A stretch of 64,000 nt of DNA from Fimbriimonadaceae bacterium (GTDB taxonomy: Bacteria; Armatimonadota; Fimbriimonadia; Fimbriimonadales; Fimbriimonadaceae): positions 1-64,000 of the forward strand of contig JAHCHO010000008.1 of NCBI GenBank assembly GCA_026129685.1, read 5' to 3'. Every line of letters starts with the position of its first letter. Position 1 is the stretch's first letter. A program made the translations under genes and the position numbers. Positions 1-17,516 of the stretch are shown here, piece after piece. Below the pieces are notes generated by a model that saw only the letters and a program-made list of their open reading frames with translations, was not told the origin of the DNA and did no database searches.

Positions 1-318
1 GGGTTTGAGGTGCGGACGTTGTCGGCGGGGGCGGCAACGCGGCTGCACGGCGTGCGGGCGGCCGGGGCGGTGGGGTTTTCGGTGTTCTATCCGTCGGCGG
101 TCGGGGGGGTGGCGCAGACGGGCAACGTCGTGCTCGTCGTGGTGGCGGCGGGCGGCGCGGCGCCGGACGCGGCGGGCGTGTTGGCGGGGACGGTGGCGGC
201 CCACCACGAGTTGGGGCCGGGCCAGACGGTGGATTTGGGCTGCCGAGAAGCGGACGTCTACGGGATAGCCCGGTCGGGGACGCCGACGGTGAGCGCGGGG
301 GATTTGCTCGGGGGTTGA
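1..318 (+). CDS. Truncated prophage protein, unknown function (5' end outside window)
   Basis: The reading frame is open at base 1 and ends with TGA at 316-318, so the N-terminus lies left of the window; the first internal start-like codon is GTG at 10. About 105 residues are visible. They are rich in Ala, Gly and Val and show a beta-strand-like pattern, with no motif I recognise. The gene is immediately upstream of a tailspike-like gene and in the same direction as the head-tail joining genes, so a virion structural role is likely, but that is inference from position only. Confidence 0.55.
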   Translation, partial: GFEVRTLSAGAATRLHGVRAAGAVGFSVFYPSAVGGVAQTGNVVLVVVAAGGAAPDAAGVLAGTVAAHHELGPGQTVDLGCREADVYGIARSGTPTVSAGDLLGG

Positions 319-320
319 CG

Positions 321-2045
321 ATGGCGTTTTCGAGTCGATCGGGTCCGGCGGCGGGCGGGGCGTCGTCGTGGGACGCGATCACGGGGAAGCCGGCCACGTA
401 TCCGCCAACGTTGCCGATCGCGACCGAGGGGGTGGCGGGTCTGGCGGACGCCTTGGCGGGCAAAGCGGCTTCGTCGCACACCCACCTCCAGAGCCAGGTG
501 ACGGCGCTCGAGGCGGACCTGGCGGGACGGTTCCGGCTGCACCTGGCTCAGGGTCGGGATCCGGTCGCGCTGGTTTCCGGTTGCGGGGCGAGCGCGACCG
601 GACTGACGGTCACGGTGACGGAGGGAGCGTACGTCGACGAGGACGGCACGTTGGTGTCGGTTCCGGAGACGGCGCTCGATCTGGCGGGCGAGGCGGACGG
701 CGACTACCTCGTGCTGGTCCACGGGGGAACGGTGGGGTACGAGCCTTGGGCGCAGCAGCTGCCGCAACCGGAGGACCTGCCGCTCTACGTGGCGACGAAG
801 AGCGGGGGCGCGGTCGCGACGCTCTACGGGTGCGCGAACCGATTGACGACGCCGTCGTCGCTCGGGCGGACGCCCTTCCTCGGCAAGCCGTACGTGCGCC
901 TCTGCAAGGTGGCGTCGGGAAACTACGCGAACGCGATCCGGACGGACAAGGTGGGGGGCCACGACCCGTACTTCGAGATGCTGGGGTTGTGGTCGTTGGC
1001 GGACCGAGAACCGGCGATGGTCCAGGCGGCGCTCGACCGGGCGCTCTCGATGTTCAACACGACGACGGTGGTTCCGGCGGCGTACGTGACGGGCGGAGGG
1101 AGCAAGACGTTTCAAGACGTCTACGGGGTGGCGCGCACGGCGGAAGCGAGGTGGTTCTGGCGGTCGCGATCGGCCGACCCTTACGACGACGCGTATCCAT
1201 CGCCGTGGACGATCGTGGCGCCGGACTCGTGCGACAGCTACGCGGCGGTGCTGATTCGGACGGCGGTCCGGCTGGCGCGGCGCGGGGGCGCCTATGCCGC
1301 GTGGTGGGACGCGAATTGGGCGGCGCTGTCGGACATCCTGTACTACAACGTGCTGATCCCGATGGCGAACACGGGCGGGGGGTACCTGACGCGGGTGTTC
1401 CAGACGGAGTCGGTGTACCCGTACTGCCTGGTGGGCGACAACTGCGAGGTGTTGCGCGGGTTGCTCGACTTCTCGAACTGGGTGACGGCGCACGGGAACG
1501 GGACGCAGACGGCCTGGCTGACGACGAACGCGGTGGCGGGGGCGATCGAGAACTTGAAGAACGGGCTGGACGACGCGTGGGACGGGGACGGCGATTTCCT
1601 CAACTGGTTCTACCGAATCGCCGCCCCGAACGCGGGATGGGGCGGGAACGATCATCTCACGTTCTATCCGGAGATCTGGGTGTATCTCATGCCGCTTCTG
1701 TTTCGGGTGCCTCTGTACAACGGATCGGCGGACGCGAAGACGCTCCACAACGAGCGGATGCGGCGGATGCGGGTCTGCCTGGACCGAATCGCGGCGCACG
1801 CGCCCTGGGCGGGGCGGAGCGGCCGTTACGGCGGGGTGTTCCCTTACGCGGCGATGTTCGCGGCGGCGTTCGCGTCGGCGGGGATGGTGGGGGAGGCCCG
1901 GCGCTGCCTGGAGTTCTTCCTCGAGCACCACGTGCGGGACGGCGACCTCGTCTTCGCGACGGTGGCGGACGTCGGATGGGCGCTGTACGCTCAGGACTGC
2001 CTTTCCGGGGCGAACCCGGACGCGATGGGAGAGTGGTTCGAGTGA
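321..2045 (+). CDS. Prophage tailspike/fibre-like protein with possible six-hairpin glycosidase domain
   Basis: 574 aa. ATG at 321 is preferred to the overlapping TTG at 315. The first 70 residues look like a tail-fibre shaft, with an ITGKPATYPPTLP stretch and a SHTH element typical of phage fibre repeats. Residues about 100-190 look beta-rich. From about 205 to the end the protein is helical and Trp/Tyr-rich, with acidic spots (DSCDSY, GDNCE, DDAWDGDGD) and regular helix pairs, as in alpha/alpha-barrel sugar-degrading enzymes. I infer a receptor-binding or polysaccharide-degrading virion protein; the enzyme family is not certain. Its place upstream of the head-tail joining genes is unusual, since fibre genes normally follow the tape measure. 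The stop overlaps the next start (GTGA). Confidence 0.55.
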   Translation: MAFSSRSGPAAGGASSWDAITGKPATYPPTLPIATEGVAGLADALAGKAASSHTHLQSQVTALEADLAGRFRLHLAQGRDPVALVSGCGASATGLTVTVTEGAYVDEDGTLVSVPETALDLAGEADGDYLVLVHGGTVGYEPWAQQLPQPEDLPLYVATKSGGAVATLYGCANRLTTPSSLGRTPFLGKPYVRLCKVASGNYANAIRTDKVGGHDPYFEMLGLWSLADREPAMVQAALDRALSMFNTTTVVPAAYVTGGGSKTFQDVYGVARTAEARWFWRSRSADPYDDAYPSPWTIVAPDSCDSYAAVLIRTAVRLARRGGAYAAWWDANWAALSDILYYNVLIPMANTGGGYLTRVFQTESVYPYCLVGDNCEVLRGLLDFSNWVTAHGNGTQTAWLTTNAVAGAIENLKNGLDDAWDGDGDFLNWFYRIAAPNAGWGGNDHLTFYPEIWVYLMPLLFRVPLYNGSADAKTLHNERMRRMRVCLDRIAAHAPWAGRSGRYGGVFPYAAMFAAAFASAGMVGEARRCLEFFLEHHVRDGDLVFATVADVGWALYAQDCLSGANPDAMGEWFE

Positions 2046-2248
2046 GGAGACCGAAGGGGGAAGGGGCGGGGCGGCCGCGCGCCGGAACGGATCGTGGCAG
2101 CGGGGATTCGGCGGATGGGGTTCGTGGCGGGTCGGTCGGCGGCGACGCGGGAGCGGTGGGTCGTGGGAGGCGTTCGGCAGGGAAGCCCAGGACCGAGGAG
2201 GCGACGCGGGTGGAGCCGGAGATTCCCGAGGGCGAGCGGGGGTTCTGA
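2042..2248 (+). CDS. Small hypothetical prophage protein
   Basis: 68 aa, starting at GTG 2042 inside the stop of the tailspike-like gene (GTGA) and ending at TGA 2246-2248, which shares a base with the ATG of the next gene. The two tight overlaps are the main evidence that this frame is translated, because the product is low-complexity: Gly/Arg-rich with an acidic end (EPEIPEGERGF). No function is recognisable. It could be a small head or connector accessory factor, or a non-coding spacer that happens to be open in this very GC-rich DNA. Confidence 0.45.
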   Translation: MRRPKGEGAGRPRAGTDRGSGDSADGVRGGSVGGDAGAVGRGRRSAGKPRTEEATRVEPEIPEGERGF

Positions 2249-2583
2249 TGCCGGTTCCGTTCAAGCCGCACACCGCGTCCTGGCGGGCGGCGACGAACGC
2301 CTCCGCGACGGCGCCGGGTTTCGCGGCGAGTCCGACCTCGGTGGCCTGTTACGTCGAGCCCGTATCGAGCGAGTCGGCGTACCGGGACACCATGATCGAA
2401 CTGCGCAACCCGTTCCGGCTGTACTGCGACCTCGGAACGTCCTTCGCGAACGGGGTCAAGGTGGGCGACAAGGTCACGTTCGACGGGTTCGACCACGTCG
2501 TACGGGCACTGTCCAAGCAGTCGGCGGGGCTGGCGCTCGATCATCTGAAGGTGACGATGGAGCGGACGGAGGGCAAGGCGTGA
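2248..2583 (+). CDS. Probable phage head closure / head-tail joining protein
   Basis: 111 aa, ATG at 2248. The small protein has a Val/Phe-rich beta pattern in its second half (NGVKVGDKVTFDGFDHVVRAL), like the compact beta-barrel of head-completion or stopper proteins that seal the connector before tail attachment. The position fits: it precedes a tail-terminator-like gene, a gp10-like gene and the tail tube gene, the usual order in siphophages. The stop overlaps the next start by 4 nt (GTGA), implying translational coupling. Function is from position and fold pattern, not a diagnostic motif. Confidence 0.5.
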   Translation: MPVPFKPHTASWRAATNASATAPGFAASPTSVACYVEPVSSESAYRDTMIELRNPFRLYCDLGTSFANGVKVGDKVTFDGFDHVVRALSKQSAGLALDHLKVTMERTEGKA

Positions 2584-3029
2584 GCCGGGTTCTCGACACG
2601 CTGACGGGTTTCGTGGCGGCGGACGTCGCCCTGGCCTGGACCGACCTGACGCGGTGCTTTATCGGGACCCGGCGCCGGGGCTCTCAAGAGACCCTGCCGT
2701 TCGCGGTGGTGCGCCTGGCGAGCGTTCGGTACAACGAGGGCGAGGGCGGGACGCTCACGACGGACCTGCAGACCTACGAGTTCGAGGTGGCGCTGTTCCT
2801 CTCGACGGCGGACAGCTACGCGGTCTCCAACGGGATCGAGGCGGCGAAGGTCCGGCGGGCGAACCAGCTGATCGAGAAGTTGATGGACACGGTCGAGTAC
2901 CACTCGGCGGCGTTCAACCCTCGGATTCTGGAAGTGGACTTCGAGGAGCAGGGGGACGACCCCGGCGAGCCGGTCTGCGAGGTGCGGGTGCGCTTCGCGG
3001 TGGACTGCGACACGGCGGCGGTGATCTAG
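2580..3029 (+). CDS. Probable phage tail terminator / minor tail protein
   Basis: 149 aa from GTG 2580, overlapping the preceding stop. The middle has alternating strands (TYEFEVALFL) followed by a long helix (SNGIEAAKVRRANQLIEKLMD) and a C-terminal strand (CEVRVRFAV). This alpha/beta layout with a final strand is what tail-terminator proteins of the lambda gpU/SPP1 gp17 kind show. Those proteins cap the growing tail tube and join it to the head. A longer in-frame upstream extension is open but would run through the two genes before it, so the coupled GTG is preferred. Confidence 0.5.
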   Translation: MSRVLDTLTGFVAADVALAWTDLTRCFIGTRRRGSQETLPFAVVRLASVRYNEGEGGTLTTDLQTYEFEVALFLSTADSYAVSNGIEAAKVRRANQLIEKLMDTVEYHSAAFNPRILEVDFEEQGDDPGEPVCEVRVRFAVDCDTAAVI

Positions 3030-3454
3030 TGGCGACGTTCCAGGGCATGGCGCGCTTTGCCGGGCACCAGAAACGGCGCTTCGCCAAGAAGCGGCGGTCG
3101 CTCACGGTGGCGCACGACGCGCTGAGCGAGGGAATGCGCGAGGAGGCGGTGGCGCTGACCTCGGGGACGGCGTACATCGCGGTCATCGACCGGACGCACC
3201 CGTTCTCTCGTCGTCGTCCCTTCGGCGGCGTGCCGAGACTGCCGATCCAGACGCGGACGGGCCGGCTGGTGCGGGCCTGGCGAACGATGCGGCGGGGGAA
3301 CGCCAAGCTCCTCATGAACCTCTCCCCGGAGGGGAAGTTCGTGCTGGCGCCGGGCGGGACGCGGCTCATGCGGGCGCGCGGCTTTGGGACCGCACTGAGG
3401 AAACGATATCTGCGACGACGGGCCCGCTTCGAGCGGGCGGCTTTGAAGGACTGA
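3029..3454 (+). CDS. Basic phage tail-completion protein, HK97 gp10-like
   Basis: 141 aa from GTG 3029, which overlaps the preceding TAG by one base. The protein is strongly basic (QKRRFAKKRRS near the N-terminus; KRYLRRRARFERAALKD at the end). It contains a RTGRLVRAWR segment resembling the TGxLRxS signature of the HK97 gp10/minor tail family. It sits directly before the tail tube gene, as expected for that family. Function is inferred from this motif and the position. Confidence 0.5.
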   Translation: MATFQGMARFAGHQKRRFAKKRRSLTVAHDALSEGMREEAVALTSGTAYIAVIDRTHPFSRRRPFGGVPRLPIQTRTGRLVRAWRTMRRGNAKLLMNLSPEGKFVLAPGGTRLMRARGFGTALRKRYLRRRARFERAALKD

Positions 3455-3457
3455 ACC

Positions 3458-4300
3458 ATGGGAATCCGACTCTCGGCGCTCGACAACTCTCTCTGGAACC
3501 TGGGGATCGCCTCCGGCACGATCGGCGACTCGGGCAACGAGATGCTGGGCCTGATCCGCACGTACAACTGGCTCACCGAGGTGGACTCGGAGGACGGCGG
3601 GGCGATCAACTCGCGCTACGCGATCCACGACGCGCTCGGATCGAAGACGACCTTCGACGGCGAGCTGCTGGTCGGAGCGGCGGGGGCGCGGAAAACGGGC
3701 CTGTCGGTCTCGCTCTTCTCGATCGGGGGCAGCGACCAGATCGGCCGGCTGGAGTCCGGTTCGCTCCGGTTCCAGAACGAGACGTTCGAGGCGGCGGGGA
3801 TCGGGGACTGGAACGACTACCCGCAGATCGTGGGCACGGAGTTCACGGCCGAGGGCGAGCTGATGATCGACGGGACGGCGACCTGGGCGGAGCTGATGGC
3901 GAACGCGACGAGCCAGTCCACGCTCGAGGTGGTCGCCTCGATCACGGTGAACGCGGTGAACTTCCAGGCGCCGATGCTTCTGAAGTCGGCGGGGTTCGGC
4001 GGCGGGCACCGGGCGCCGAACAAGGAGCGGGTGTCGCTGGTGGGTCGTCTGACGTCGGCGGGAATGACGGCGCCGACCTACACTTCGGGCGCCTACACGC
4101 TTTTGCAGTACCTCCTGTACTACCCGGCGGGTTCGGCGGGCCGTCCGTTGCGGATCGTTCCGGGCGGGGACCGGGCCTACGCGGCCTCGAACGTGATCCT
4201 GCTGTCCTCGGATATCCAGTTCGGGCGACGGCAGCTGCTCAAGCAGACGTTCAGCGGCCAGGTGCAGGGCGCGGCCACGGTGGGCGACGCGACCCCGTAG
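3458..4300 (+). CDS. Probable major tail tube protein
   Basis: 280 aa, ATG 3458, 3 nt after the previous stop. It is beta-rich without charged clusters. Its place fits the tail tube subunit: after the head-tail joining genes and, apart from an inserted cassette, directly before the tail-assembly chaperones and tape measure. The C-terminus (LKQTFSGQVQGAATVGDATP) resembles the end of tube proteins carrying a beta-sandwich. The internal duplication-like pattern (FDGELLVGA, EGELMIDGT) suggests two related beta domains. Confidence 0.6.
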   Translation: MGIRLSALDNSLWNLGIASGTIGDSGNEMLGLIRTYNWLTEVDSEDGGAINSRYAIHDALGSKTTFDGELLVGAAGARKTGLSVSLFSIGGSDQIGRLESGSLRFQNETFEAAGIGDWNDYPQIVGTEFTAEGELMIDGTATWAELMANATSQSTLEVVASITVNAVNFQAPMLLKSAGFGGGHRAPNKERVSLVGRLTSAGMTAPTYTSGAYTLLQYLLYYPAGSAGRPLRIVPGGDRAYAASNVILLSSDIQFGRRQLLKQTFSGQVQGAATVGDATP

Positions 4301-4346
4301 GGACCCCTTTTGCGAGAGAGGTCCTCCGGTTTCGGACGAAACGGCG

Positions 4347-4360
4347 TAATATAGCGCTGA
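4347..4360 (+). promoter_or_regulatory. Promoter -10 element giving a predicted leaderless transcript
   Basis: TAATAT lies at 4347-4352, followed by seven bases and then ATG 4360. Transcription normally starts about seven bases after a -10 box, which would put the first transcript base on the start codon itself. No good -35 box is visible. Together with the terminator at 5078-5110 this sets 4360-5050 apart from the surrounding tail genes. Confidence 0.45.
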
Positions 4361-4623
4361 TGGACTCGGAGGCGTTGGTGGCGATAGCGAACCGCTTGGC
4401 TCGTTTTGGACGGTCGCCGGATCCGGCGATGCGGCAAGCGGTCGCTCGGTTGCGCGCGATCGCCAAGCTGTACGATCGCGGCTTTATGGACGCCGCGGGC
4501 GCGGAGCGGCTGGCCAATCGAGAGGTGGCGCGTCTCGCGTCCCGATGGATGTTGGGGCGTCACGGGCGTCGCCAGCGGGGCTCGGTTCGCAGACTCATGG
4601 CGGGCGAGCGTGCGCTACAGTAG
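4360..4623 (+). CDS. Small basic helical protein, candidate moron gene 1
   Basis: 87 aa, ATG 4360, with no Shine-Dalgarno sequence but a -10-like TAATAT seven bases upstream. The product is almost wholly helical and basic (RRQRGSVRRLMAGERALQ at the end), with no domain I recognise. It overlaps the next gene by 14 nt. It is the first of two genes inserted between the tail tube and chaperone genes, positions that normally adjoin in siphophages. That makes it a candidate lysogenic cargo gene rather than a structural one. Confidence 0.5.
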   Translation: MDSEALVAIANRLARFGRSPDPAMRQAVARLRAIAKLYDRGFMDAAGAERLANREVARLASRWMLGRHGRRQRGSVRRLMAGERALQ

Positions 4624-5050
4624 GCGTCGTCGGCGCGCCGGGTACGCGTCCACGAGCGAGTCGAAGGCGTTGCCGGGCGATCCGGACGCGCCCGTGACCC
4701 GCGCCGAGTTGGTGGACGTCGTGCGAGACGCGGTCTTGGTGGCGCATGACGACGAGGACGTCTTTCTCGAGGGCGGGGACCACATCGCCGAGAACTGGAC
4801 GACCGAGCACACGACGCAGTGGATCGAGGCGGTCGACAAGACCGACCAGCGATCCCACCGAGAAAAGATGTGGACCACGTGGGCGTGGATGGTGGCGATC
4901 CTCGCGGCGTTCGGCCTGATCGCCTACCTGGTGGGTTCGGGCCACGACGAGGTCGTCGTGCAGGTCGCTCCCCACATCGTGTCGCTCGTTGCCGGTTTCG
5001 CCGGGGGCTACGGGTTCGCTCGCACGCGCAAGGCGCGCGAAGAGGACTGA
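4610..5050 (+). CDS. Two-helix membrane protein, candidate moron gene 2
   Basis: 146 aa from GTG 4610, the only plausible start close to the previous gene's end. After a basic N-terminus and an acidic soluble part (residues about 20-85) there are two hydrophobic segments at about 88-108 and 119-136. The C-terminus is basic (ARTRKAREED). This predicts an inner-membrane protein with both ends in the cytoplasm. The location between tail tube and chaperones, closed by a terminator, suggests a lysogen-expressed function such as superinfection exclusion. A holin is an alternative, but no endolysin gene is adjacent. Confidence 0.55.
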   Translation: MRYSRRRRRAGYASTSESKALPGDPDAPVTRAELVDVVRDAVLVAHDDEDVFLEGGDHIAENWTTEHTTQWIEAVDKTDQRSHREKMWTTWAWMVAILAAFGLIAYLVGSGHDEVVVQVAPHIVSLVAGFAGGYGFARTRKAREED

Positions 5051-5077
5051 GCCGCCGAACGTTTTCGATTTCTGCGA

Positions 5078-5110
5078 GAGCCTCGCCGACGGCGAGGCTC
5101 TTCTCGTTTC
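5078..5110 (+). terminator. Rho-independent terminator inside the tail module
   Basis: GAGCCTCGCC (5078-5087) and GGCGAGGCTC (5091-5100) form a perfect 10-bp stem with a GAC loop. It is followed by the T-rich stretch TTCTCGTTTC. It lies 27 nt after the membrane gene and upstream of the chaperone gene, so it would stop transcripts of the 4360-5050 cassette. Late transcription through the tail genes would need antitermination or read-through here. Confidence 0.7.
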
Positions 5111-5124
5111 CTTAGGGACCCTTT

Positions 5125-5574
5125 ATGTTCGATATCGAGAGGCTGATCGAGGAGTACACGCCGGAGCCGGGCCCGTTCCCGGTGGTCCTGCCGAAGGGGG
5201 AGGTGCTGACGTTTCGGCCCATTTCGCGGCACGGGGAATGGGAGCGGCTCAAGGAGCGGGCGGCGGGCTGGGTGCGCGACCTGCCCAAGCCGGGGGAGGA
5301 CGTCGGTCATCCGTTCGAGGGGCTGGTGCCGGAGGACGCGGGGGACGCCTTCGTGGCGTACCTGATCGCGGAGCTGTCGGTCGAGCCCAAGATCGGGCTG
5401 CGGGACGCTTTGCGGATGTTGCGGGCGCCGATGCTGGCCGACCACGTGTACCAGTCGATTCGCTCGGCGTCGAAGGAGCTGGACATGGTGCGGCTGGCGG
5501 ACCGTGTCGAGGCGTCCAAAAAAAAGCGCGCGGAGACGGAGGGTACCGATTCCGACTCGCCGTCCAGGCCCTGA
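5125..5574 (+). CDS. Tail assembly chaperone, short (gpG-like) product
   Basis: 149 aa, ATG 5125, between the tail tube/cassette and the tape measure gene. This is the conserved position of the lambda gpG/gpGT chaperones, which bind the tape measure protein and recruit tail tube subunits. The N-terminal 130 residues look folded (LTFRPISRHGEWERLKERAA, GDAFVAYLIAELS). After a Lys run the normal frame continues with only 15 polar residues. The Lys codons contain the slippery heptamer A AAA AAG at 5520-5526, and the -1 frame runs on with a sensible sequence to 5684. Confidence 0.7.
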   Translation: MFDIERLIEEYTPEPGPFPVVLPKGEVLTFRPISRHGEWERLKERAAGWVRDLPKPGEDVGHPFEGLVPEDAGDAFVAYLIAELSVEPKIGLRDALRMLRAPMLADHVYQSIRSASKELDMVRLADRVEASKKKRAETEGTDSDSPSRP

Positions 5575-5684
5575 GCCTGGAGACGTTCCACAAACCGTTC
5601 GACCTTCTGACGGAGGTCGAGGAGACGGCGCTCGCGGAGCTCGCGGCGCATCGCGTTCTTCAGAGCGAGGACCATGGCCACTAG
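5125..5684 (+). CDS. Tail assembly chaperone, frameshifted (gpGT-like) fusion product
   Basis: The predicted translation is 5125-5526 joined by -1 slippage to 5526-5684, giving 186 aa. Slippage would occur on A AAA AAG (5520-5526), the same heptamer used by E. coli dnaX. The added 52 residues (AVQALSLETFHKPFDLLTEV, then EETALAELAAHRVLQ) read as an ordered helical domain. That frame has no start of its own close by, and it ends at TAG 5682-5684, overlapping the tape measure start at 5674. Many siphophages produce the G and GT chaperones this way at this position. No downstream stimulatory structure was identified. Confidence 0.65.
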
Positions 5685-7323
5685 CGTCAACACGGTGATC
5701 GAGCGGTACCTGCTCGACGCCTCCCAGTACGTGGCGGCCTCGCGGCGCGTGACGGCGGCGACGGGCCAGATGGCGAAGGCGGCGGCGGGCGCGCGGGCGG
5801 CGCTCTCGCTTCCGGGGGGGACGGCCTCGCCGATGGCGCGCTTCGCGTTCGGGGTTCGGAACCAGGACGACCGGGCGACGTTCGGTTCGACGTTCGGACC
5901 GGGGGTGCGACTCGCGGGACGGGCGGCGCTCACCGGCTTCCGGGTGGCGACGGCGGCGCTGACGGCGGAGCTGGCGGCGCTCACGGTGGCGGCGCGGGTC
6001 GCGTTCGGGGCGTTGGAGGCGTTCGGCGAGTTCGAGGCGCTGAAGAGGGGCTTCGAGAACGTCGTCGGCGACGGCCGGGAGGCGGAGAAGCAGCTCAAGC
6101 GGCTGCGGGAGATCGGGCGTTTGCCCGGCATCGACTTCGAGGGGGCGATCACGGGTTCGCGGGCGCTCCAGGAGGCGGGCCTTTCGGCGGCGGAGGCCGA
6201 GGAGACGCTGCGCCAGTTCGCGAACGCCTCGGCGCTGGCCGGGATGGCGACGACGGAGACGACGAGCGCGCTCATGCAGTTGCGGCAGGCGCTGCGGAAG
6301 GGGAAGATCGACGGGGACGAACTGCGGTCCGTGCTCGAGAACGTGCCCTACGCGGCGCGGGCGCTCAAGGACGCGTTCGGAACGTCGGTAGGGGCGGAGC
6401 TCGCGGCGATGGGGGTGACGGCCAAGCAAGCGCTCGGGGTCATCGTCGCGCGACTGGCGGAGGTCCCGCGCGCGGCGGACGGGGTCAAGAACTCGCTGGA
6501 GAACGTCCGGGCGTCGTGGCACCTGGCGGAGGTTTCGATCGGCGAGGGGGTGAACACGGCGATCGGGGGGATCGGCGGGATCGCGACGGCGCTCGACGAT
6601 CTGGTCGAGGGGGGCGCGTTCGCCACGCTCGGCGAGAAGCTGGGCGCGATCTTCGCCACGGACGGGGTGGAGAACATGACGGGGGCGCTGGGCGACCTGA
6701 CGGCGGCGTTCCAGACGCTGGTGGACTGGATCGGGATCGCGACAAAGGAGACGGGGAACTACCTCGACACGATCGGCGCGGCGATTCCGGGGGTGGGGAT
6801 GGTCAAGCGGCTTCTCGACTGGGCGACGGGTCCGGTGCGGGACACGCAGGCCAAGAATCGGTCCGGGATCGAGACCCAAATGGACCTCGCGAGGACGCGG
6901 CGAGACGTGCACGCGGCGCGGCGGATGTTCGGGGAGGGCCAAACGGACGAGGCGGTTCAGCGGGCGATGCCGGGGCGGGACCGCGAGTGGATCGCGAGAC
7001 AGCGGGCGATCTGGGCGGTCAAGCAGAAGGAACCGGAGCGGGAGAAGCCGTTCGCGGAGGACGGAGCGCGGCGCGGGGCGGCCGCCGCGATGACGCGGCT
7101 GACGGGAGCGATCGAACGGAACACGGAGGCGAGCGAGCGCCTGGGCGAGCTTCAGCGCATGATCTTCGGGGGCGGGAATCTGGGGCGCTTCGGAGTGTCG
7201 CCGATCGAACTCGGGCAGAACCGTCGGGGTCGAGGCAATTCGGTCACCATCACGGTGTTGGGCGGGGCGAACGAGCTGATCGACACGGTGATGCGGCTCA
7301 AGCGGGACGGCGTGCTGGCGTGA
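5674..7323 (+). CDS. Tail tape measure protein
   Basis: 549 aa, ATG 5674. The protein is long, Ala-rich and mainly helical. It has the tape-measure N-terminal domain pattern around residues 120-290: FGEFEALKRGFENVVGDG, then LREIGRLPGIDFEGA, and LENVPYAARALKDAFG with a tandem of helix-breaking turns. A more hydrophobic central stretch (GIGGIATALDDL to IGAAIPGVGMVKRLLD) and a charged C-terminal part follow. It sits right after the chaperones, as in lambda-like phages. At about 0.15 nm per residue, as in other siphophages, the tail would be roughly 80 nm. The stop is followed by a gene on the other strand. Confidence 0.75.
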   Translation: MATSVNTVIERYLLDASQYVAASRRVTAATGQMAKAAAGARAALSLPGGTASPMARFAFGVRNQDDRATFGSTFGPGVRLAGRAALTGFRVATAALTAELAALTVAARVAFGALEAFGEFEALKRGFENVVGDGREAEKQLKRLREIGRLPGIDFEGAITGSRALQEAGLSAAEAEETLRQFANASALAGMATTETTSALMQLRQALRKGKIDGDELRSVLENVPYAARALKDAFGTSVGAELAAMGVTAKQALGVIVARLAEVPRAADGVKNSLENVRASWHLAEVSIGEGVNTAIGGIGGIATALDDLVEGGAFATLGEKLGAIFATDGVENMTGALGDLTAAFQTLVDWIGIATKETGNYLDTIGAAIPGVGMVKRLLDWATGPVRDTQAKNRSGIETQMDLARTRRDVHAARRMFGEGQTDEAVQRAMPGRDREWIARQRAIWAVKQKEPEREKPFAEDGARRGAAAAMTRLTGAIERNTEASERLGELQRMIFGGGNLGRFGVSPIELGQNRRGRGNSVTITVLGGANELIDTVMRLKRDGVLA

Positions 7324-7331
7324 GGGGCGGG

Positions 7332-8033
7332 TCAGGGGGTTCGATCGCTCGGGTCCAGCACGAACCGGTTTCGGAACTCCCCTTCGGCGACGAAGACGGC
7401 GGTTGCTTCGGCGGTGGCGAGGAGCAGGGAGAGCCGGGTTCGGGGCCAGAGGCGCTCGTCGTGAAGCAGGAGGACACGGCCGGGGTCGAGGAAGCGATCC
7501 GGCTGGCGGGCGGCGAGGAGGTCGTTGGCGAGGATCTGGCCGCCGTTCGGGTTGTGGGACCGCAGATCGTTCGGGTCACGAACATACTCGCTCAGGCTGG
7601 GCGCGAGTTCGCCCAGGCTTCGAAGGCGGGGAGGAAGGCGGCCGTCGTGGTCGGCGGCGTAGACCAGGAGGACGAGGGCGCCGTTGCGAAGGTGCCTGGC
7701 GCCCGCATCGCGGAGAGCGGACTCGCGCGCGTTTCGCTGGGCGCCCAGGGAGGCGAGGAGGGCGAGGGCGCCGAGGCCGAACACGGCGGCGACAAGGCAC
7801 CCGACGGCGAGTCCGACGTCTTGTCCAAGGCCCTGGGAGAAGCGGTTGGCCCAAGGCGGGCGGGGGGTTCTGGGAGGTAGTACGGCGACGACGGGCGGGG
7901 GCGACGGGGCGGGGGCGGCGCACGCGACGCACCGGCCGCCGTTCGCCATGCTTTCGGCGCGGGGGATGCGCTTTCGGCAGTCGGTGCAGTAGGAAGGGTT
8001 CAGATCGTCGTCGGTGAGGGGCGGCCGGCCCAC
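7332..8033 (-). CDS. Zinc-ribbon membrane protein with pseudopilin-like C-terminus, cargo in prophage
   Basis: 233 aa from GTG 8033; upstream in-frame sequence is REP-like and unlikely to be coding. Residues 16-38 form a CxxC...CxxC zinc ribbon, followed by a Pro-rich linker, a membrane segment at about 74-97 and an exposed domain. That domain contains NGALVLLVYAADHDGRLPP, which resembles the part after the signal helix in this genome's pseudopilins (MYxxDxDDxYP). It lacks the FTLIELL cleavage motif. It is transcribed against the tail genes and lies next to repeats found in host-type DNA, so it looks like a host gene carried by the phage. Function unknown. Confidence 0.6.
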   Translation of the reverse strand: MGRPPLTDDDLNPSYCTDCRKRIPRAESMANGGRCVACAAPAPSPPPVVAVLPPRTPRPPWANRFSQGLGQDVGLAVGCLVAAVFGLGALALLASLGAQRNARESALRDAGARHLRNGALVLLVYAADHDGRLPPRLRSLGELAPSLSEYVRDPNDLRSHNPNGGQILANDLLAARQPDRFLDPGRVLLLHDERLWPRTRLSLLLATAEATAVFVAEGEFRNRFVLDPSDRTP

Positions 8034-8070
8034 GGGGCGATTGTGGCCGATGGCGGGCTTGGGGTGTAAG

Positions 8071-8277
8071 GGGGTCCTTCGCTGCGCTCCGGATGACAGG
8101 GGGGGAACCGGGGGTCTTTCGCTGCGCTCTGGGGCTCGAGGCAAGGCAGACCAAGTAACGCTTGTTCAGGGGGCTTTACGGGACCGGGATCCTTCGCTTC
8201 GCTCAGGATGACAGGTCTCGCTCAGGATGACAGGGGCGGGCGGTGCCGGGGATCCTTCGCTTCGCTCAGGATGACAG
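8071..8277. repeat. Cluster of REP-type palindromic repeats
   Basis: Several imperfect copies of the unit GATCCTTCGCTTCGCTCAGG plus ATGACAG occur: 8072-8099 (TCCTTCGCTGCGCTCCGGAT variant), 8112-8130 (partial), 8188-8214, 8217-8233 (3' part only) and 8250-8277. The core CTTCGCTTCGCTCAG can fold back on itself. Units of this sequence are widely seen as dispersed intergenic repeats in many bacterial genomes, where their antisense reads as CHPERSEG. They fill the gap between the antisense cargo gene and the replication gene. Confidence 0.7.
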
Positions 8278-8336
8278 AGGGGAAAGAGATCACAGGACAG
8301 GTTTGCCTCCGCAATCACGAGGAACGGAGTACCGCT

Positions 8337-9116
8337 ATGGCCAAACGCGGCGTCATCGATCACCCCAAGTTCAACTTGCTCAAGCGCTTGCTCGACACGA
8401 ACCGAAGCGGAACGCTGGGTTATCTGGAGTGCCTGTGGCAGTTCGCGGGACGGTTCGCGCCGCAGGGGAACATCGGGCGGTATTCCGACGAGGAGATCGA
8501 GGCTTGGCTCGAGTGGGACGGGGCGCCGGGAGGGTTGATCGAGGCGCTCGTCAAGGCGCGCTGGCTCGACCGCTCGGAGGCGCACCGATTGCTGGTGCAC
8601 GATTGGGCGGACCACGTGGACCATACGACGCGGGCGGCGCTACGGCGGGCCGGTCTCACGGTGATCGGGGGCGACCCGCTCGGGGGGCCGGAGTCGGACG
8701 ACACGTCGACGGTGTGCGCACGGCGTGCGAACGCCGACGTCACGGAGGACGAACGGGGTGCGCATGCCGTCTCGCGCGCGATGCCGGAGCCAGAGCCCGG
8801 GCCGGAGCCGGAGCCGCGCGAGGCGATTCCGGCGGTCTTGGACACACCGGGGTTTCGGGCGGCCTGGGCGGACTGGCTTCGGCACCGGCGCCAGATTCGG
8901 CACCCGCTCAAACCGATGACGGAGGAGCGGCAGTTGGCGGAGTTGGCGCGGCACGGGCCGGTGGTCGCGGTGCGGGCGATCGAGGACTCGATTCGTCACG
9001 GCTGGCAGGGGCTCTTTCCCGAGAAGGGGGCGGCGCGAGCCGCCGGACCACCGGGACGAGGACCGGACGGTGAGCGCGCGCGGCGGGTGGCGGCGATGCT
9101 GGAGGCGACGTCGTGA
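8337..9116 (+). CDS. Phage replisome organiser, DnaD-like
   Basis: 259 aa, ATG 8337, with a purine-rich GAGGAACGGAG about ten bases upstream. The N-terminal 105 residues follow a common phage replication-protein layout: KFNLLKRLL, LGYLECLWQF, DEEIEAWLEW, GLIEALVKARWLD, LLVHDWADHVD. This is a winged-helix-like DNA-binding domain. A Pro/Glu linker (residues about 145-165) leads to a C-terminal segment (AIEDSIRHGWQGLFP), the DnaD/DnaT-type helicase-contacting motif. It probably binds the phage origin and recruits the helicase loader. The next gene overlaps by 4 nt. A replication pair lying inside the tail module is unusual. Confidence 0.7.
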   Translation: MAKRGVIDHPKFNLLKRLLDTNRSGTLGYLECLWQFAGRFAPQGNIGRYSDEEIEAWLEWDGAPGGLIEALVKARWLDRSEAHRLLVHDWADHVDHTTRAALRRAGLTVIGGDPLGGPESDDTSTVCARRANADVTEDERGAHAVSRAMPEPEPGPEPEPREAIPAVLDTPGFRAAWADWLRHRRQIRHPLKPMTEERQLAELARHGPVVAVRAIEDSIRHGWQGLFPEKGAARAAGPPGRGPDGERARRVAAMLEATS

Positions 9117-9502
9117 CGCGCGCCGAAGCGCTGGCGACGGCGCTCGAGGTGTGGCAGGCGTTGCGGTATCCGAAGGACCCGGAGCAGGTGGCGCGGACGT
9201 GGATGGCAGTTTTGGAGCGGGCGGACGCTTCGGCGGCGGAAGTGGAACGGGTCTCCCTGCGAATCTTGGAGTCGGAAGAGGAGTTCCCGGCCCCGGCGAC
9301 GTTCCTGCGGCGGCTGGGCGACCTGCGGCGGGAGGACCCGCCGGTGTACCGGCCGGGTCTGCCGACGATGCGGCGTTCGGAGGCGCGGGCGCTGTGGCGT
9401 CGCGAGTCGTTGCGCGAGGCGTTGGCGCCCCCGGACGCGCGGCGGCGTCTCGGAGAGGCCTTCGCGCGGCTGGAGGGTCGTCGTCCCGATCCCGAGGGAT
9501 AG
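9113..9502 (+). CDS. Small partner of the replisome organiser, possibly G39P-like helicase loader
   Basis: 129 aa from GTG 9113 overlapping the previous stop (GTGA). The N-terminal 70 residues (LEVWQALRYPKDPEQVARTW, then VSLRILESEEEFPAPATFLRRL) resemble the helical N-terminal domain of SPP1 G39P-type loaders in length and in the W...L...fP pattern. The C-terminal part is Arg-rich and probably flexible, as in G39P. Tight coupling to a DnaD-like gene supports a replication role. The family assignment is tentative. Confidence 0.45.
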   Translation: MTRAEALATALEVWQALRYPKDPEQVARTWMAVLERADASAAEVERVSLRILESEEEFPAPATFLRRLGDLRREDPPVYRPGLPTMRRSEARALWRRESLREALAPPDARRRLGEAFARLEGRRPDPEG

Positions 9503-9511
9503 GTTCGGTTC

Positions 9512-11920
9512 ATGGCGAGTTTTCCGGACGCGTGGACGGTGTGGTTCGACACGGCGCAGAGGCGCGTCGTCGCGGACGCGGAGCGGGCGATGGTGCGGAC
9601 TTACGAGGACGACCTGGACCGTTCGACGACGATCTCCTCGAACTCGACCTGGCTCGATCCGGTCACCAAGACGCTCCTCCTGCGTCCTATGGTCCTGAAG
9701 GACGAGTGGACGACGACGACGACGGGAATCCACGCCCGGTTTCGGCTCGCCGGCTACACGCTGACGGCGGGCGGGACGGCGGCGTTCAAGGAGTCCGAGT
9801 TCGCGGTTTCGGGCGACTGGTGGACGGAGGCCGAGTCGGGCGACCTGACGGTGGACGCCGACCGGGTGGTCGAGACGACGGCGAGCCTGGCGAGGAACGA
9901 GGGCGTCTCGCTCTCTTGGTTCGCGTTCGGGACGGGCACGGAGTCGTTCGTCCAGATGGAGTGCGGCTGGGGCGGCGGCGGGTACGCGGGAGCGGACCTT
10001 TCGCTGCGCTTCTACCACGGCGGCCAGGTCGAGGTCTGGTGGCGCGGCCGTTTGATCAAGACGGAGTCCATCGGTTCGAGCGGAACGACGGGCGAGTCGG
10101 AGGCGGCGGGGATCGACGCGAACCGGTTCGCCTCGGTCCTCCTGATCCCCTGGCGGCGGCGGGAGCTGCTGGTCTGGGGGGTCTCGAGCGGCCAGGGATT
10201 CAGCGCGGTGCTGCCGATCGCGGAGGACGCGGGCGAGGTGGTGCCGGCCCGACGTTTCTGGTGGAAGGTCCCGACGGGGAAGGTCAAGGTCCGATTCGCC
10301 CCGGTGCGGTACCCGAGCTCGGGAACGGCCTGGTCCAAGAAGGTCTCGTTCCCCTCGGCGCCGCCAACGGGGGCGGTCCTGCTCAATCAGCAGTCCACGG
10401 ACGTGCCCCGGACGATCTACAGCGACTCGTGGGACCACGTCGCCTGCACGGTGGCGGCGACGATGCGTCGCTGGGACTCGTCTTCGACGATCTTCGTGCC
10501 CGACGGCTTTCGGCGGGAGGGACTGATCCGGTTCGAGCTGGCGACGACGGACTCCCGGTTCACGCCGGAGGTCTACGCGGCGGCCTTCGAGTACGCGCCC
10601 GACGACGACGACCGGTTCGCCGAGACGGACGACGCGGACGAGACCGACCTCACGGACTCGATCGTCAGGCTCGAGTTCGACTTCCCGGAAGAGCCGGACG
10701 GGGCGGAGTTCCGACTGACCCTCAAGGACCCGACGGGTCTGGCGGGCGGCGGCGGTCCGGACCTGCTCGCGCACGGCTCGCGGCCCGTTCAGGTTCGGGC
10801 GGGATCGCTCGTGATCTTCGACGGGGTCTCGGAGCCGCCGGAGCTGACGGAAGGGTTCGGCCCGGCGAACGACCGGTTGGCGATCCGGGTGCGGGACGGG
10901 TGGAAGCGGCTGGAGCGGTACGTGTTCCGCTCGCCGATGGTCCTCGACGGGCTGACGCTGCGCCAGGCGGTGCGGAAGATTCTGTGGCAGGTCGGGATCG
11001 GGAACGATCCCGGGAACGACTGGGAGAGCGAGACCGCGCAGGACCCGGCCCAGACCGCCATCGACGACGCGGACTACGTGCTGGTGGCGGACGGTTCGCG
11101 CTTGACGCACGTCTGCGAGGCGGGCCAGACCGCCTCCGAGTGCCTCAAGGACCTCTTCGAGACGCTGATCCCGACCTGGACGATGGGTTTCGAGGCGGTT
11201 TCGACGGGCGGGCGGCCCCGGTTCTTCCTGCGGGCGCCGGAGGACACGCCGACCTCGGCGCGGGCGGCCTCGCGAGCGACGCTCTGGACGCGGATCGCGG
11301 ACGCGGAAACGGCTCTGCAGAGCGCGCCCTACTCGTTCTCGGCCGACGAGGCGCGCGACCGGGCGCCGAGGTTCGTGGTGCGCGCGCGCAAGAGCGGCGC
11401 CCTCGAGCCGGAGGCGAACGAGATTCACGTTCTGGGCTGGGACGCGCGCGAGGATCGGCCCGTCCAGACCAAGATCGTGGACCGGGCCTCGCAGGACCCG
11501 ACGCTCGCGGTCGCGGATCGGCCCGCCAACTGGATCGGAGAGCCGGTCGTCTACGGCCTGGCGGACAAGATCGTGCGGGACGACGCGACGGCCCGGCGGG
11601 CGGCGCTTCTTCTGTTCGACCGGCTGACGCCCCGGCGGATCGTGGACGAATGGACGTGCGATCCGATCCTCGATCCGAACGACTCGTGGGTCCCGGTGGC
11701 GCGGGGGCTCGTGGTGACGCTCGACGAGTGCGGCTCGTTTCGGATTCGGGGCTACGGCGGCCGATGCGTGCGGGAGAACCCGGACGACCTGGTTCTGCGG
11801 GACGTCACGTACCTGGGCGACTATCTGGGCGGCGGGACGGCGCCCGCGCCGGAGACGCCCGCCTGGACCCTGTACCGGGAATCCCGGTTCGGATACGTCT
11901 CGCTCGACGGTGGACTTTAG
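9512..11920 (+). CDS. Prophage tail hub / baseplate protein
   Basis: 802 aa, ATG 9512, preceded by GAGGGATAGG. The first 370 residues are beta-rich (strands such as VEVWWRGRLIKTE and KVKVRFAPVRYPS), possibly a distal-tail or lectin-like part. Residues about 380-800 (VRLEFDFPEEPDG, RAGSLVIFDGVSE, LRQAVRKILWQVG, FRIRGYGGRCVREN) resemble the multi-domain hub proteins that close the tail tube. The large size and the position after the tape measure support a hub or tail-associated role. No peptidoglycan hydrolase motif is evident. Confidence 0.5.
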   Translation: MASFPDAWTVWFDTAQRRVVADAERAMVRTYEDDLDRSTTISSNSTWLDPVTKTLLLRPMVLKDEWTTTTTGIHARFRLAGYTLTAGGTAAFKESEFAVSGDWWTEAESGDLTVDADRVVETTASLARNEGVSLSWFAFGTGTESFVQMECGWGGGGYAGADLSLRFYHGGQVEVWWRGRLIKTESIGSSGTTGESEAAGIDANRFASVLLIPWRRRELLVWGVSSGQGFSAVLPIAEDAGEVVPARRFWWKVPTGKVKVRFAPVRYPSSGTAWSKKVSFPSAPPTGAVLLNQQSTDVPRTIYSDSWDHVACTVAATMRRWDSSSTIFVPDGFRREGLIRFELATTDSRFTPEVYAAAFEYAPDDDDRFAETDDADETDLTDSIVRLEFDFPEEPDGAEFRLTLKDPTGLAGGGGPDLLAHGSRPVQVRAGSLVIFDGVSEPPELTEGFGPANDRLAIRVRDGWKRLERYVFRSPMVLDGLTLRQAVRKILWQVGIGNDPGNDWESETAQDPAQTAIDDADYVLVADGSRLTHVCEAGQTASECLKDLFETLIPTWTMGFEAVSTGGRPRFFLRAPEDTPTSARAASRATLWTRIADAETALQSAPYSFSADEARDRAPRFVVRARKSGALEPEANEIHVLGWDAREDRPVQTKIVDRASQDPTLAVADRPANWIGEPVVYGLADKIVRDDATARRAALLLFDRLTPRRIVDEWTCDPILDPNDSWVPVARGLVVTLDECGSFRIRGYGGRCVRENPDDLVLRDVTYLGDYLGGGTAPAPETPAWTLYRESRFGYVSLDGGL

Positions 11921-11923
11921 ACT

Positions 11924-12220
11924 ATGGCGGCACTCCTCTACGTCAATCCGACCGACGACACGGCGGACGCGACCCCGGCGGAGGCGTTCGGCACGCCCTC
12001 GCCCGACCGATTGGCGGTTCGTTTCGTGCTCAACGACGAGTCGCCGGACGCGCGGCTGTACGTGGGGGTCTCGTCGGGTATGACCACGACGACGGGAGTG
12101 CTGGCGCGGGTGGGTCCCGGCCAGGCGGTGACGGTCGAGTGCGGTCCCTCTCAAGACCTCTTCTACCGGACGGACGGCTCGAACCGCGCGATCACGATGT
12201 GGGAGGTCACCGGGGTTTGA
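11924..12220 (+). CDS. Small prophage structural protein
   Basis: 98 aa, ATG 11924, 3 nt after the hub gene. It is beta-rich, with no Cys apart from one (VECGPSQ) and no membrane segment. The mix of short strands and Asp/Thr loops (RLYVGVSSGM, GQAVTVECG) suits a small tail-tip or decoration protein. Its stop overlaps the next TTG start. No family recognised. Confidence 0.5.
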   Translation: MAALLYVNPTDDTADATPAEAFGTPSPDRLAVRFVLNDESPDARLYVGVSSGMTTTTGVLARVGPGQAVTVECGPSQDLFYRTDGSNRAITMWEVTGV

Positions 12221-12348
12221 GGACCGGCCTGCGCACGGCCCAGCGGCTGGCGGCGGCCAAGCGGTTCACGAAGACGATCGTTCGCAAGGGCTCCGAGGAC
12301 CTGGCGCGAAAGAACCCGTCGAAGGTGACCATCGTGCCGAAACCGTGA
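12217..12348 (+). CDS. Very small basic prophage protein
   Basis: 43 aa from TTG 12217, within the TTGA overlap of the previous stop. The product is strongly basic (RTAQRLAAAKRFTKTIVRKG) and looks like one amphipathic helix plus a tail. The coupling and the reasonable amino-acid mix favour a real gene, but the rare start and small size leave doubt. Function unknown. Confidence 0.4.
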   Translation: MRTGLRTAQRLAAAKRFTKTIVRKGSEDLARKNPSKVTIVPKP

Positions 12349-12447
12349 ATCGCGCTGGGAGATCGGGGCATTCCTATCTCTGGATAGAGAGCACGGGAGC
12401 GGAGAGAGCATCCGCCTGTACGGTCTGCCTCTGAGGAAACGACAGCC

Positions 12448-15400
12448 ATGAACGCCGGTCTCTATTGGTCCGTCGAGCGCTACGCGCTGCTGGCGGAGGG
12501 AGCGGTGACGGCGACCCGTTCGGGGACGCTCGCGGGATGTCGCGGGGGAGTCGAGGTCGAGACGCAGACGGCGCCCAACCTGGCGGCTTCCCGGCAACGG
12601 GCGATCTTCGCCTACGCCCGGACGACGAAGCTCTCGAGCGGGGACGTCACGAGCTGGGGTTGGGAGATCCCGGACCTGTCGGAGTCGTGGTTCACCACGT
12701 CGTCGGGGTTCACGAGCGACCCGTCGGTACGAGTGGAACTCGACGACCTCAAGGTTTTCGTCACGACGACCCTCGGTTTGTATCACTGGCGGGTGACGTT
12801 TTCGGAGATTCGGCTCTACGGGCAGGGGACGCTCCTTCGGACGCTCGGATCGGGGTCGGTGGACGGTCCGTGGGGCCTGTTGACCGCCCCTTCGGTCCCG
12901 CTCATCGGGATTCCGGCGCGGGTGGCGGCCCACGCCTCGCACAACCCGCAACCGCCGCTATGGATCGGGGCGGACGGGGCGACGACGTTCGACTACACAG
13001 TGGACGCGGCGGTGACGGCGGGAGGTTGGACCTACCTGCAGGACGGGACGTGGTTCGAACCGGAGGTTCTGGTCTCGGTCGAGGCGATTCCGGCGCTGAC
13101 CTGCGGCGTCTCGCCGGGCACGCCCTCGATCGGCGGTACGACGATCGCGACGATGACGGCGACCGCGCGGGCGGTGTTCGCGCAGCCGGCGACGAACCAC
13201 CTGATCCACGAGATCGGTTCGTCGTCGGTCTGGGCGTGCCCGAACCTGGTTCGCTCGGTCGAGCGTTTGGGTCCGGAGTACGCGGCGCTCGTTTACCGGG
13301 GAGCGCTTCCCGCGACCAAGCGCACGGCCTCTTCGATCTGTTACACGGGGTATCCGCCGTTCGGGACCTTGACGACGAACTCCTCGGAGACGCCGGTCCA
13401 CGCGAATCGAGACGAGATTCTTGCGACGGTGGGCGGTTCGGCGCACGCGTTGGAGGACGCGTTCGGGGACGATCTGTTCGCGCCCTACGAGTTGGACGCG
13501 GTTCGGAGCGACTGGGACCTAATGGGCCAGTACGCGGCCAAGACGATCCGCTCCTCGTTCGGGGTGGACAACGTCACGGACGTGACGGGCCACACGTTCG
13601 GCTACCTCCGGTACACGAGCGACGATCTGGCCTGGTACGTCGCGACGATCTGCTCGCCGCACTGGTCCACGATCCTCTGGTTCCCGGACGAGTCCTCGTC
13701 GCTGTGGCCGGTGTTCGGGGAGACGGCGACGCCGGGGACCTACTGGTTCTGGCAACGTCAGCAGTTTCTGACGCACCCGGCCCTTCCCGAGGACGAGAAC
13801 GTCGAGCGTCGAACGGACGTGATGCTCGAACCGCTGGACGAATCGGGACTGGCGGGATACGTGTCCTCGATGGTCGCTCCGCAGGACGTCTCCTGGTGGG
13901 GCGTCTCGCGGTTCAAGCGACGAGACTTGGCTTCGGTCTCGGGGGCGTTGGTTCCGACCCACGCTTCCCTTTGGTCGGCAGTCGGCGGGAGCCTGTCGCA
14001 CGGGGCGGCGATCACGGTGACGGCGAACCCCGGCGAGACGCTCGTCACGGTGGACCTCGATCTGCTGTCGTTCGCGGTTTCGCCCTACGGGGCCATGATG
14101 CTCGCCGAAACGTTCGCGGTCTCCTGGTCGGGCGCGTCGGTCGCGGCGGTGACGGCGAGCCTGGTCGGGTGGGACGGCGCGGAGACGACTTTGGGGACGG
14201 CGCCGGGGACGTACTCGTGGCCCTCGACCCTGGCGGCGACGAAGTACGCCGGGACCTGGGCCCAAGAGTTCGGGTACCTAACGTTCCTGACCCGCGACAC
14301 GGGGGTGGACTCGGGACCCTCGGGGATCAGCGCGGCGCTGTTCGCCGATCCCCGGACAGCGGCGTTCCCTCGGTTGCTCAGGGCAAGGTCGGCGCGATAC
14401 CTGCGGTTCGCGGTGACGCTGACTTCGGCGGGAGCCTCGATGAGCCTGGCCTACCCGACGGTGACCCCGAGGACGTCGGAGCCGACGGTGGTGCCGGAAA
14501 CGGCTCAGGTGGGCGACCTGCTCTGGGCGGACGGTCCCGGAGGGCGGTTCGGCTCGCTCAAGTTCGACACGGACGCGCCGTACGCGGCTTCGGTGCCCGA
14601 CCCGTGGCGGGTCCCGAAGGCCTGGGACTGGCTGTGCTGGGAGAACGCGTTCCTGCGGGGGTTGGCAGCCGAAACGGACGCGGCGGCCCGCATCGCTGCG
14701 TTGTACGACCCTGCGGAGGGCTCCACGATCGAGGACGTCGCGAGCGACACCCTGACGGTGCCGGTGACGAAGGGTTCGCGTTCGTCCGCGCTCGTGATCA
14801 ACTCCTGGGCGGAGTGTCCGCCGTCTATCGGGTGCCCGAACCGGGACCGGGACGACGCCCTGGCGGAAACGGGAACGGAGGCGGTCCTCAAGACTTGGTC
14901 GTGCTGTTCGCGGCGGAGGTTCTTGTCGTCGAACTCGAACGCGCTGGAGCAGACGGACCCGCTGACGGCGACGCCGATCGGGGCGACTTCCGGTCTGTTC
15001 GCGGTCTCCGGGTGGCACGTTTGGGACCACGACCTGCGCCTCGACAATTCGGAGGGGCCGAGCCACCCGATCGGTGCGGGGGACCGGCTGGCGCTCGCGA
15101 GTCCCTGGCACGGGTACCTCGCGATCGTGTTCGACCGAACCGGCTCGTCTGGTCCGTTCTACGACGTCGGTCCGGCCTTCGAGCACGCCTGGGGGTATCG
15201 GGAGGACGGGACCTGGTACGTCGAGGAGGGGCGGGGAAACGTTTTGCCGATCCCTTGGGACCGGGTTCCGCAGAAGATCACGGCGGACTGGGTTCGGCTC
15301 GCGCGGGAACGGGCCTCGCGCGAGGGACGGCGGTTCCTGATCGTCTCCGACGCGGGGACGGTCGATCTCTACCGGGCGAACGACCACGGCGGGAGGTGGA

Positions 15401-15681
15401 CTTTGGCGACGACTCTGGGAAGCGGCTCTTACCCGACGGTCTGCTCTTCGGACGACGGCACGATCTACTGCTACTGGATCGACGGGACGGATCTGAAGGG
15501 CAAGCTGCTCGACGCCTCGTTCAACGTTCTCAAGGGGCCGTTCGTCGCCAAGACGGGTGTGGACGCCGGCGGGATCGACTGCTTCGTCTCGCGGGGATCG
15601 CGCGGTTCCTCGCGGGTGGGGCTGGTGTGGTCCGAGGGGGGCGTCGCGAAGATCGACTTTTCGGACACCGGCGAGTTCTGA
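12448..15681 (+). CDS. Large prophage tail fibre / baseplate protein
   Basis: 1077 aa, ATG 12448, with GAGGAAA about 12 bases upstream. The whole protein is beta-rich with many Trp, Tyr, Ser and Thr residues (for example WYVATICSPHWSTILW and YGYREDGTWYV-like segments). Toward the end it has repeats that look like propeller blades or sialidase-type strands (FLIVSDAGTVDLYRANDHGG, YPTVCSSDDGTIYCYW, RVGLVWSEGG). It lies after the hub gene and is followed by further fibre genes, so it is probably a central fibre or receptor-binding protein. No catalytic motif is clear. Confidence 0.5.
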   Translation: MNAGLYWSVERYALLAEGAVTATRSGTLAGCRGGVEVETQTAPNLAASRQRAIFAYARTTKLSSGDVTSWGWEIPDLSESWFTTSSGFTSDPSVRVELDDLKVFVTTTLGLYHWRVTFSEIRLYGQGTLLRTLGSGSVDGPWGLLTAPSVPLIGIPARVAAHASHNPQPPLWIGADGATTFDYTVDAAVTAGGWTYLQDGTWFEPEVLVSVEAIPALTCGVSPGTPSIGGTTIATMTATARAVFAQPATNHLIHEIGSSSVWACPNLVRSVERLGPEYAALVYRGALPATKRTASSICYTGYPPFGTLTTNSSETPVHANRDEILATVGGSAHALEDAFGDDLFAPYELDAVRSDWDLMGQYAAKTIRSSFGVDNVTDVTGHTFGYLRYTSDDLAWYVATICSPHWSTILWFPDESSSLWPVFGETATPGTYWFWQRQQFLTHPALPEDENVERRTDVMLEPLDESGLAGYVSSMVAPQDVSWWGVSRFKRRDLASVSGALVPTHASLWSAVGGSLSHGAAITVTANPGETLVTVDLDLLSFAVSPYGAMMLAETFAVSWSGASVAAVTASLVGWDGAETTLGTAPGTYSWPSTLAATKYAGTWAQEFGYLTFLTRDTGVDSGPSGISAALFADPRTAAFPRLLRARSARYLRFAVTLTSAGASMSLAYPTVTPRTSEPTVVPETAQVGDLLWADGPGGRFGSLKFDTDAPYAASVPDPWRVPKAWDWLCWENAFLRGLAAETDAAARIAALYDPAEGSTIEDVASDTLTVPVTKGSRSSALVINSWAECPPSIGCPNRDRDDALAETGTEAVLKTWSCCSRRRFLSSNSNALEQTDPLTATPIGATSGLFAVSGWHVWDHDLRLDNSEGPSHPIGAGDRLALASPWHGYLAIVFDRTGSSGPFYDVGPAFEHAWGYREDGTWYVEEGRGNVLPIPWDRVPQKITADWVRLARERASREGRRFLIVSDAGTVDLYRANDHGGRWTLATTLGSGSYPTVCSSDDGTIYCYWIDGTDLKGKLLDASFNVLKGPFVAKTGVDAGGIDCFVSRGSRGSSRVGLVWSEGGVAKIDFSDTGEF

Positions 15682-15683
15682 CC

Positions 15684-16010
15684 ATGCCTTACGTGAGCCA
15701 AGACGGATTCGACCCTCGGTCGCCCCGAACGCGGGCGGTCTCGTCCTCGGGCGCGATCGCCGCTTACGACGAGGTTCTGCGCGTCGATACGACCGGGGGC
15801 GCGGTGACGATCGACCTCGTGGACCCGACGGGGTGGGACTCGCGGGTCCGCACCGTCAAGGACGTGGGCGGCGCGGCCGCGACGAACGCGATCACGCTGG
15901 ACCCGGCGCCGGGGGTGAACCTCGACGGCTCGACCTCGAACCGCACGATCACTTTGGCTTACGGCTCGATCCGCCTGATCTGCGCGGGCGGTCATTGGTA
16001 CACGGTCTGA
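15684..16010 (+). CDS. Small beta-rich prophage fibre accessory protein
   Basis: 108 aa, ATG 15684, 2 nt after the large fibre gene. The middle (TGGAVTIDLVDPTGWDSRVR, then TVKDVGGAAATNAITLD) and the end (YGSIRLICAGGHWYTV) match the short module often found at the tips of phage fibre or collar proteins (tVKdvgG...I.l....i.g....tl....gs..l...g..W). I infer a fibre-tip or virion attachment protein. Confidence 0.55.
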   Translation: MPYVSQDGFDPRSPRTRAVSSSGAIAAYDEVLRVDTTGGAVTIDLVDPTGWDSRVRTVKDVGGAAATNAITLDPAPGVNLDGSTSNRTITLAYGSIRLICAGGHWYTV

Positions 16011-16013
16011 CAC

Positions 16014-17090: not shown

Positions 17091-17093
17091 ACG

Positions 17094-17309: not shown

Positions 17310-17516
17310 CCCGTCCTTGAGGCAAGAGCCGAGTGGGACGGCTCGTCCTGGCGACGCATCGTTGCCCTTACTCAGGCGCCTTACACGGTTGCGCGGTCAG
17401 GCGCCAACGCGGCGTTGCGGGCGACTCGGGAGTGTCGTGCGTCGAGCGCTCCGGTTGGCACTCTCGACACGGTGCCATGGGAGTCAGCCGGGAGGACCCA
17501 AATCATGGCTGTTTTG

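Follow-up and report, generated by a model that had tools for sequence, protein, structure and literature searches.

A prophage in a member of the Armatimonadota very probably produces an additional, longer version of its tail chaperone by a one-base slip back on eight consecutive A's, and we consider it likely, with good confidence, that the gene concerned is a tail chaperone gene with a programmed -1 ribosomal frameshift of the phage lambda gpG/gpGT type. The gene is located in a 64,000-nt stretch of a Fimbriimonadaceae contig (the window), directly upstream of the tape measure gene (Table 1). Its 0 frame reads TCC (5515), AAA (5518), AAA (5521), and AAG (5524), after which 15 more codons precede the stop. 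An earlier note on this DNA had described an A_AAA_AAG heptamer within the codons AAA AAA AAG, phased for a -1 shift and followed by 52 codons in the -1 frame up to a stop overlapping the start of the tape measure gene. Both the coordinates and the phase of the heptamer are correct and the sequence agrees with the remainder, as the T-like frame ends in a TAG at 5682-5684 and the tape measure ATG is found at 5674. Translated from 5526, this frame encodes ARGDGGYRFRLAVQALSLETFHKPFDLLTEVEETALAELAAHRVLQSEDHGH, which includes the peptide LAVQALSLETFHKPFDLLTEVEETALAELAAHR. Most ribosomes would complete the 149-aa G-like protein, while a minority would shift back by one base at A_AAA_AAG and continue into the 52-aa T-like domain. 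The predicted fusion would be about 186 aa in length with a G part of 134 aa and the junction ...VEASKKK/ARGDGGYR.

Table 1. Coordinates of the chaperone gene, its slippery site, and the neighboring tail genes (positions in the window).
Feature	Position	Strand	Basis
Probable major tail protein, 280 aa, expected T-domain partner	3458..4300	+	gene order only
Tail assembly chaperone, G-like domain, 149 aa	5125..5574	+	0 frame; ORF, profile matches, predicted fold
A8G run	5518..5526	+	A8 = 5518-5525, G = 5526
Slippery heptamer A_AAA_AAG	5520..5526	+	phased for -1 shift; ten relatives have a slippery site at the equivalent position
T-like domain, 52 codons + stop	5526..5684	+	-1 frame; leave-one-out profile, coding signature, predicted two helices
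Tape measure protein, 549 aa	5674..7323	+	Pfam TMP_3 E=1.2e-22; PHROG tape measure families to 3.4e-16

The prophage tail region spans positions 1-17309 from the left end of the contig and ordinary metabolic genes follow from about 17.7 kb. Since the tail region begins at the contig end, no head genes were seen in the window. The product of the presumed major tail protein gene had no match in Pfam or PHROGs. It should also be noted that a replication-initiation-like gene (PHROG 9474, E=3.8e-18) and a small neighbor are found inside the tail module (8208-9502), with both placed between the tape measure gene and the distal tail genes.

Two features of the site are uninformative. The phase of the heptamer is automatic for any A8G, because a phased A_AAA_AAR heptamer is present in all three phases of any A8 followed by G. 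Similarly, the -1 frame was open for at least 52 codons at 99.8% of the sampled in-gene positions of this GC-rich phage, and since it is nearly always open inside real genes, the openness of the T-like frame is equally uninformative. What takes the arrangement beyond chance is a unique A8, a pair of rare AAA codons, a switch in coding signature, and the recurrence of a T-like domain and slippery site in ten relatives. The A8 at 5518 is the sole A8 on either strand of the entire 3.94-Mb genome. Among the 70 lysine codons of six further phage genes in the window, only 3 are AAA, yet two AAA codons are adjacent at the chaperone site. The coding signature, a high GC3 together with a low GC2, is found in frame 0 before the site (GC by codon position 0.73/0.42/0.93) and in frame -1 past the 0-frame stop (0.80/0.31/0.83). 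The T-like domain was predicted to form two helices (pLDDT 76), and a structure search with this model yielded no telling match.

Profile searches with the G-like domain matched proteins from 14 further genomes of the Armatimonadota, in part weakly. Ten relatives from other genomes of the phylum have the same layout (L002, L003, L005, L006, L008, L015, L017, L018, L019, and L021), with 14-26% identity in the first domain; the chaperone start codons are approximate in some of them. Conservation of the -1 frame among relatives had been put forward earlier as a check, and indeed all ten have a T-like domain in this frame behind a slippery site. Eight of these sites are A-runs and two are of the GGGGGAR type: A7 in L002 (after GGG), L005, L008, L017, and L018, A8 in L006 and L015, A9 in L021, GGGGGAA in L003, and GGGGGAG in L019. 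When each locus was scored with a leave-one-out T profile, the -1 frame ranked top among the six frames at 11/11 loci (E from 4e-21 to 0.011), with the match of the window being weak (E=0.0017). In L003, L006, L015, L019, and L021, a stop in the -1 frame precedes the slippery site by 4-19 nt, and therefore the shift must occur at the slippery site in these five. In L015 and L019, the 0 frame also stops within a few codons after the site. Two IMG/VR sequences, L024 and L025, are near-copies of L006 and differ from each other at 0/159 nt in T, 13/411 nt in G, and 134/1500 nt in the tape measure gene, while L026, from an uncultured Armatimonadetes bacterium, is a 100% match to L008.

The relatives also bear upon whether the frame break is real and whether the two domains are joined. 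If one A had been missed in the homopolymer during assembly, G and T would truly be a single ORF. Some read types often undercall homopolymers and one extra A would join both frames, but the frames break at the corresponding position in all ten relatives, whose runs differ, which makes such an error exceedingly improbable. The T-like domain might otherwise be a separate protein made by coupled re-initiation rather than part of a fusion, as could be imagined for L006, L024, and L025, in which a T-frame ATG overlaps the 0-frame stop (ATGA). We regard this as very unlikely, given that the slippery runs are retained even in loci having an ATG. As the earlier note had also pointed out, the T-like domain of the window lacks a start codon of its own: from the site to its end, the frame contains no ATG, GTG, or TTG and just three CTG codons. 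A fusion made by frameshifting is the reading we prefer.

Single-protein scans of viral contigs and genome contigs with the window chaperone returned zero relatives, and a phage collection gave just weak Vibrio phage matches to it (E about 0.1). When relatives served as queries against viral contigs, five gave none and one gave L024 and L025. Two candidates, L004 and L007, were false matches from the first search and were rejected, with L004 overlapping genes that resemble ruvA and ruvB. Four further loci (L016, L020, L022, and L023) encode chaperone relatives and have no T-like frame, slippery site, or normal tape measure gene, and a short protein of about 80-190 aa takes the place of the tape measure protein. 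In L005, L008, L017, and L018, which retain both the T domain and the slippery site, a short protein likewise occurs instead of the tape measure protein. By eye, the C-terminus of some of these short proteins resembles that of the window tape measure protein (VSPIEL...).

A separate observation concerns L077 (G034:C1:229000-248999), a compact capsid-tail cluster of ~14.5 kb on the minus strand (2925-17486) of a single-contig genome. It includes genes for a terminase, a portal, a protease/capsid, a head-tail adaptor, a presumed major tail protein, a chaperone without a T domain, a distal tail protein, and a GDSL hydrolase, together with a weak match to a CHAP domain. Of 113 genomes belonging to the order, 19 encode relatives of the 709-aa distal tail protein. 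The cluster resembles either a gene transfer agent or a degenerate prophage.

The same G-T fusion could also arise from transcriptional slippage, with RNA polymerase adding one A within the A8 in some transcripts, and the lysine tRNAs of the host are pertinent here. Its tRNA genes include one tRNA-Lys(CUU) and one tRNA-Lys(UUU). For dnaX, Thermus, which likewise has two lysine tRNAs, uses RNA polymerase slippage, whereas E. coli uses ribosomal frameshifting at A_AAA_AAG (PMC5009743). Two lysine tRNAs are thought to disfavor slippage at A_AAA_AAG, and the reliance of Thermus upon its polymerase may be due to the tight pairing of a second lysine tRNA with AAG (PMC5009743). Because both lysine tRNAs are present, A_AAA_AAG should be weakened in this host, which therefore leaves room for polymerase slippage on the A8 of the window copy; this A8 is also close in length to A9, a run that slips efficiently in bacteria. 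Against this, five of the relatives have just A7 and two have no A-run at all, all five A7 runs begin at codon position 3, and the RNA structure among the loci is strongest at the distance where a ribosomal stimulator would be expected. For the latter, RNA folding was scored as z-scores in 45-nt folding windows at 75 offsets across 11 loci. The lowest mean z of the 75 offsets was obtained for the folding window that begins 5 nt past the site (-1.72), with the others at -0.22 (sd 0.34), and clear stem-loops are found downstream of the site in L002, L003, L005, L017, and L018. A stimulatory hairpin of the window's own is unsupported, as the 45 nt past its site had a z of +0.13 and were no more structured than shuffles. 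Overall, transcriptional slippage seems unlikely, and the A7 and G5 relatives together with the RNA structure favor the ribosomal route for the family.

The two G-run relatives fit a ribosomal mechanism as well, because GGGGGAA is a reported shift motif, the 'fivetwo' motif found among SEA-PHAGES frameshifted genes, nearly all of which encode tail chaperones (PMC10885494). L003 (GGGGGAA) and L019 (GGGGGAG) share this type of site, whereas the window and the remaining eight relatives carry an A-run. Each of these eight relatives has AAA, not AAG, in the A site even though the genes mostly favor AAG for lysine, and the window, with AAG, is the exception. All ten relative host genomes encode tRNA-Lys(CUU), while tRNA-Lys(UUU) was seen in two of the ten in a search aimed at CUU. 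We would tentatively suggest, as a minority possibility, that with tRNA-Lys(CUU) in the hosts, the A-run sites of the family settled on A_AAA_AAA, opposite to E. coli, which prefers A_AAA_AAG, and that the window copy, having AAG and an A8, may have turned to polymerase slippage or adopted a site kept deliberately weak.

Tail chaperones diverge past sequence recognition, and none of the 11 family members matches the tail chaperone families of Pfam or PHROGs. A sequence profile search of the PDB gave no relevant match, and Foldseek alone, run with the G-like model (mean pLDDT 67.5), gave no significant match, with no E below 1.6. The model was then re-aligned with VIA-align 2, and the best two of the 289 aligned chains were 2OB9, the HK97 tail assembly chaperone gp13 (Z 5.5, 93 aligned, rmsd 4.4), and 3KLU, Bacillus YqbN (Z 5.0, 91 aligned, rmsd 3.6), each with a Z too low to trust alone and with sequence identities of 9-14%. 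The identification as a tail chaperone comes from gene position, conserved frameshift, and modest fold similarity taken together. The lambda gpG/gpGT-type interpretation given in the earlier note gains support from the position, the two-domain layout, and this modest similarity to the HK97 gp13/YqbN fold.

The gpG/gpGT frameshift of phage lambda was reportedly described by Xu, Hendrix and Duda in 2004, and a review covers it (PMC5009743). As in lambda, the chaperone gene of the window precedes the tape measure gene and has a -1 slippery heptamer near its 3' end, and its second domain, in the -1 frame, overlaps the tape measure start. The two differ in their slippery sites, which is GGGAAAG in lambda and A_AAA_AAG in the window. 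The window chaperone also has no recognizable sequence similarity to its lambda counterpart, its host belongs to the Armatimonadota and has two lysine tRNAs, and two small ORFs separate the presumed major tail protein gene from the chaperone gene. An ORF located in this interval (4637-5050) encodes apparent membrane helices. According to the lambda model, G binds the tape measure protein and the rarer G-T links the tape measure protein to the tail tube protein, at a ratio of about 30:1 (PMC5009743). By analogy, the G-like protein would coat the tape measure protein, the product of the gene that follows, and the less abundant fusion would recruit the major tail protein through its T domain, such that tube polymerization could start. 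We infer from the same comparison that ribosomal slippage, the fusion as a minor product, and both binding roles would most likely apply to this prophage.

The mechanism itself is textbook, a well-known phage trick, and what is new is the host phylum, the poorly studied Armatimonadota, along with the chaperone sequence family; in the part of the literature that was covered, no report combining Armatimonadota, phage, and frameshift was found. Since the chaperone falls outside the families of Pfam and PHROGs and the window's T domain lacks a start codon, annotation pipelines likely miss such loci. These results extend the G/GT tail-chaperone frameshift to prophages of the Armatimonadota as a set of eleven diverged loci, which lend themselves to a natural comparison of how shift sites are chosen in hosts having two lysine tRNAs.
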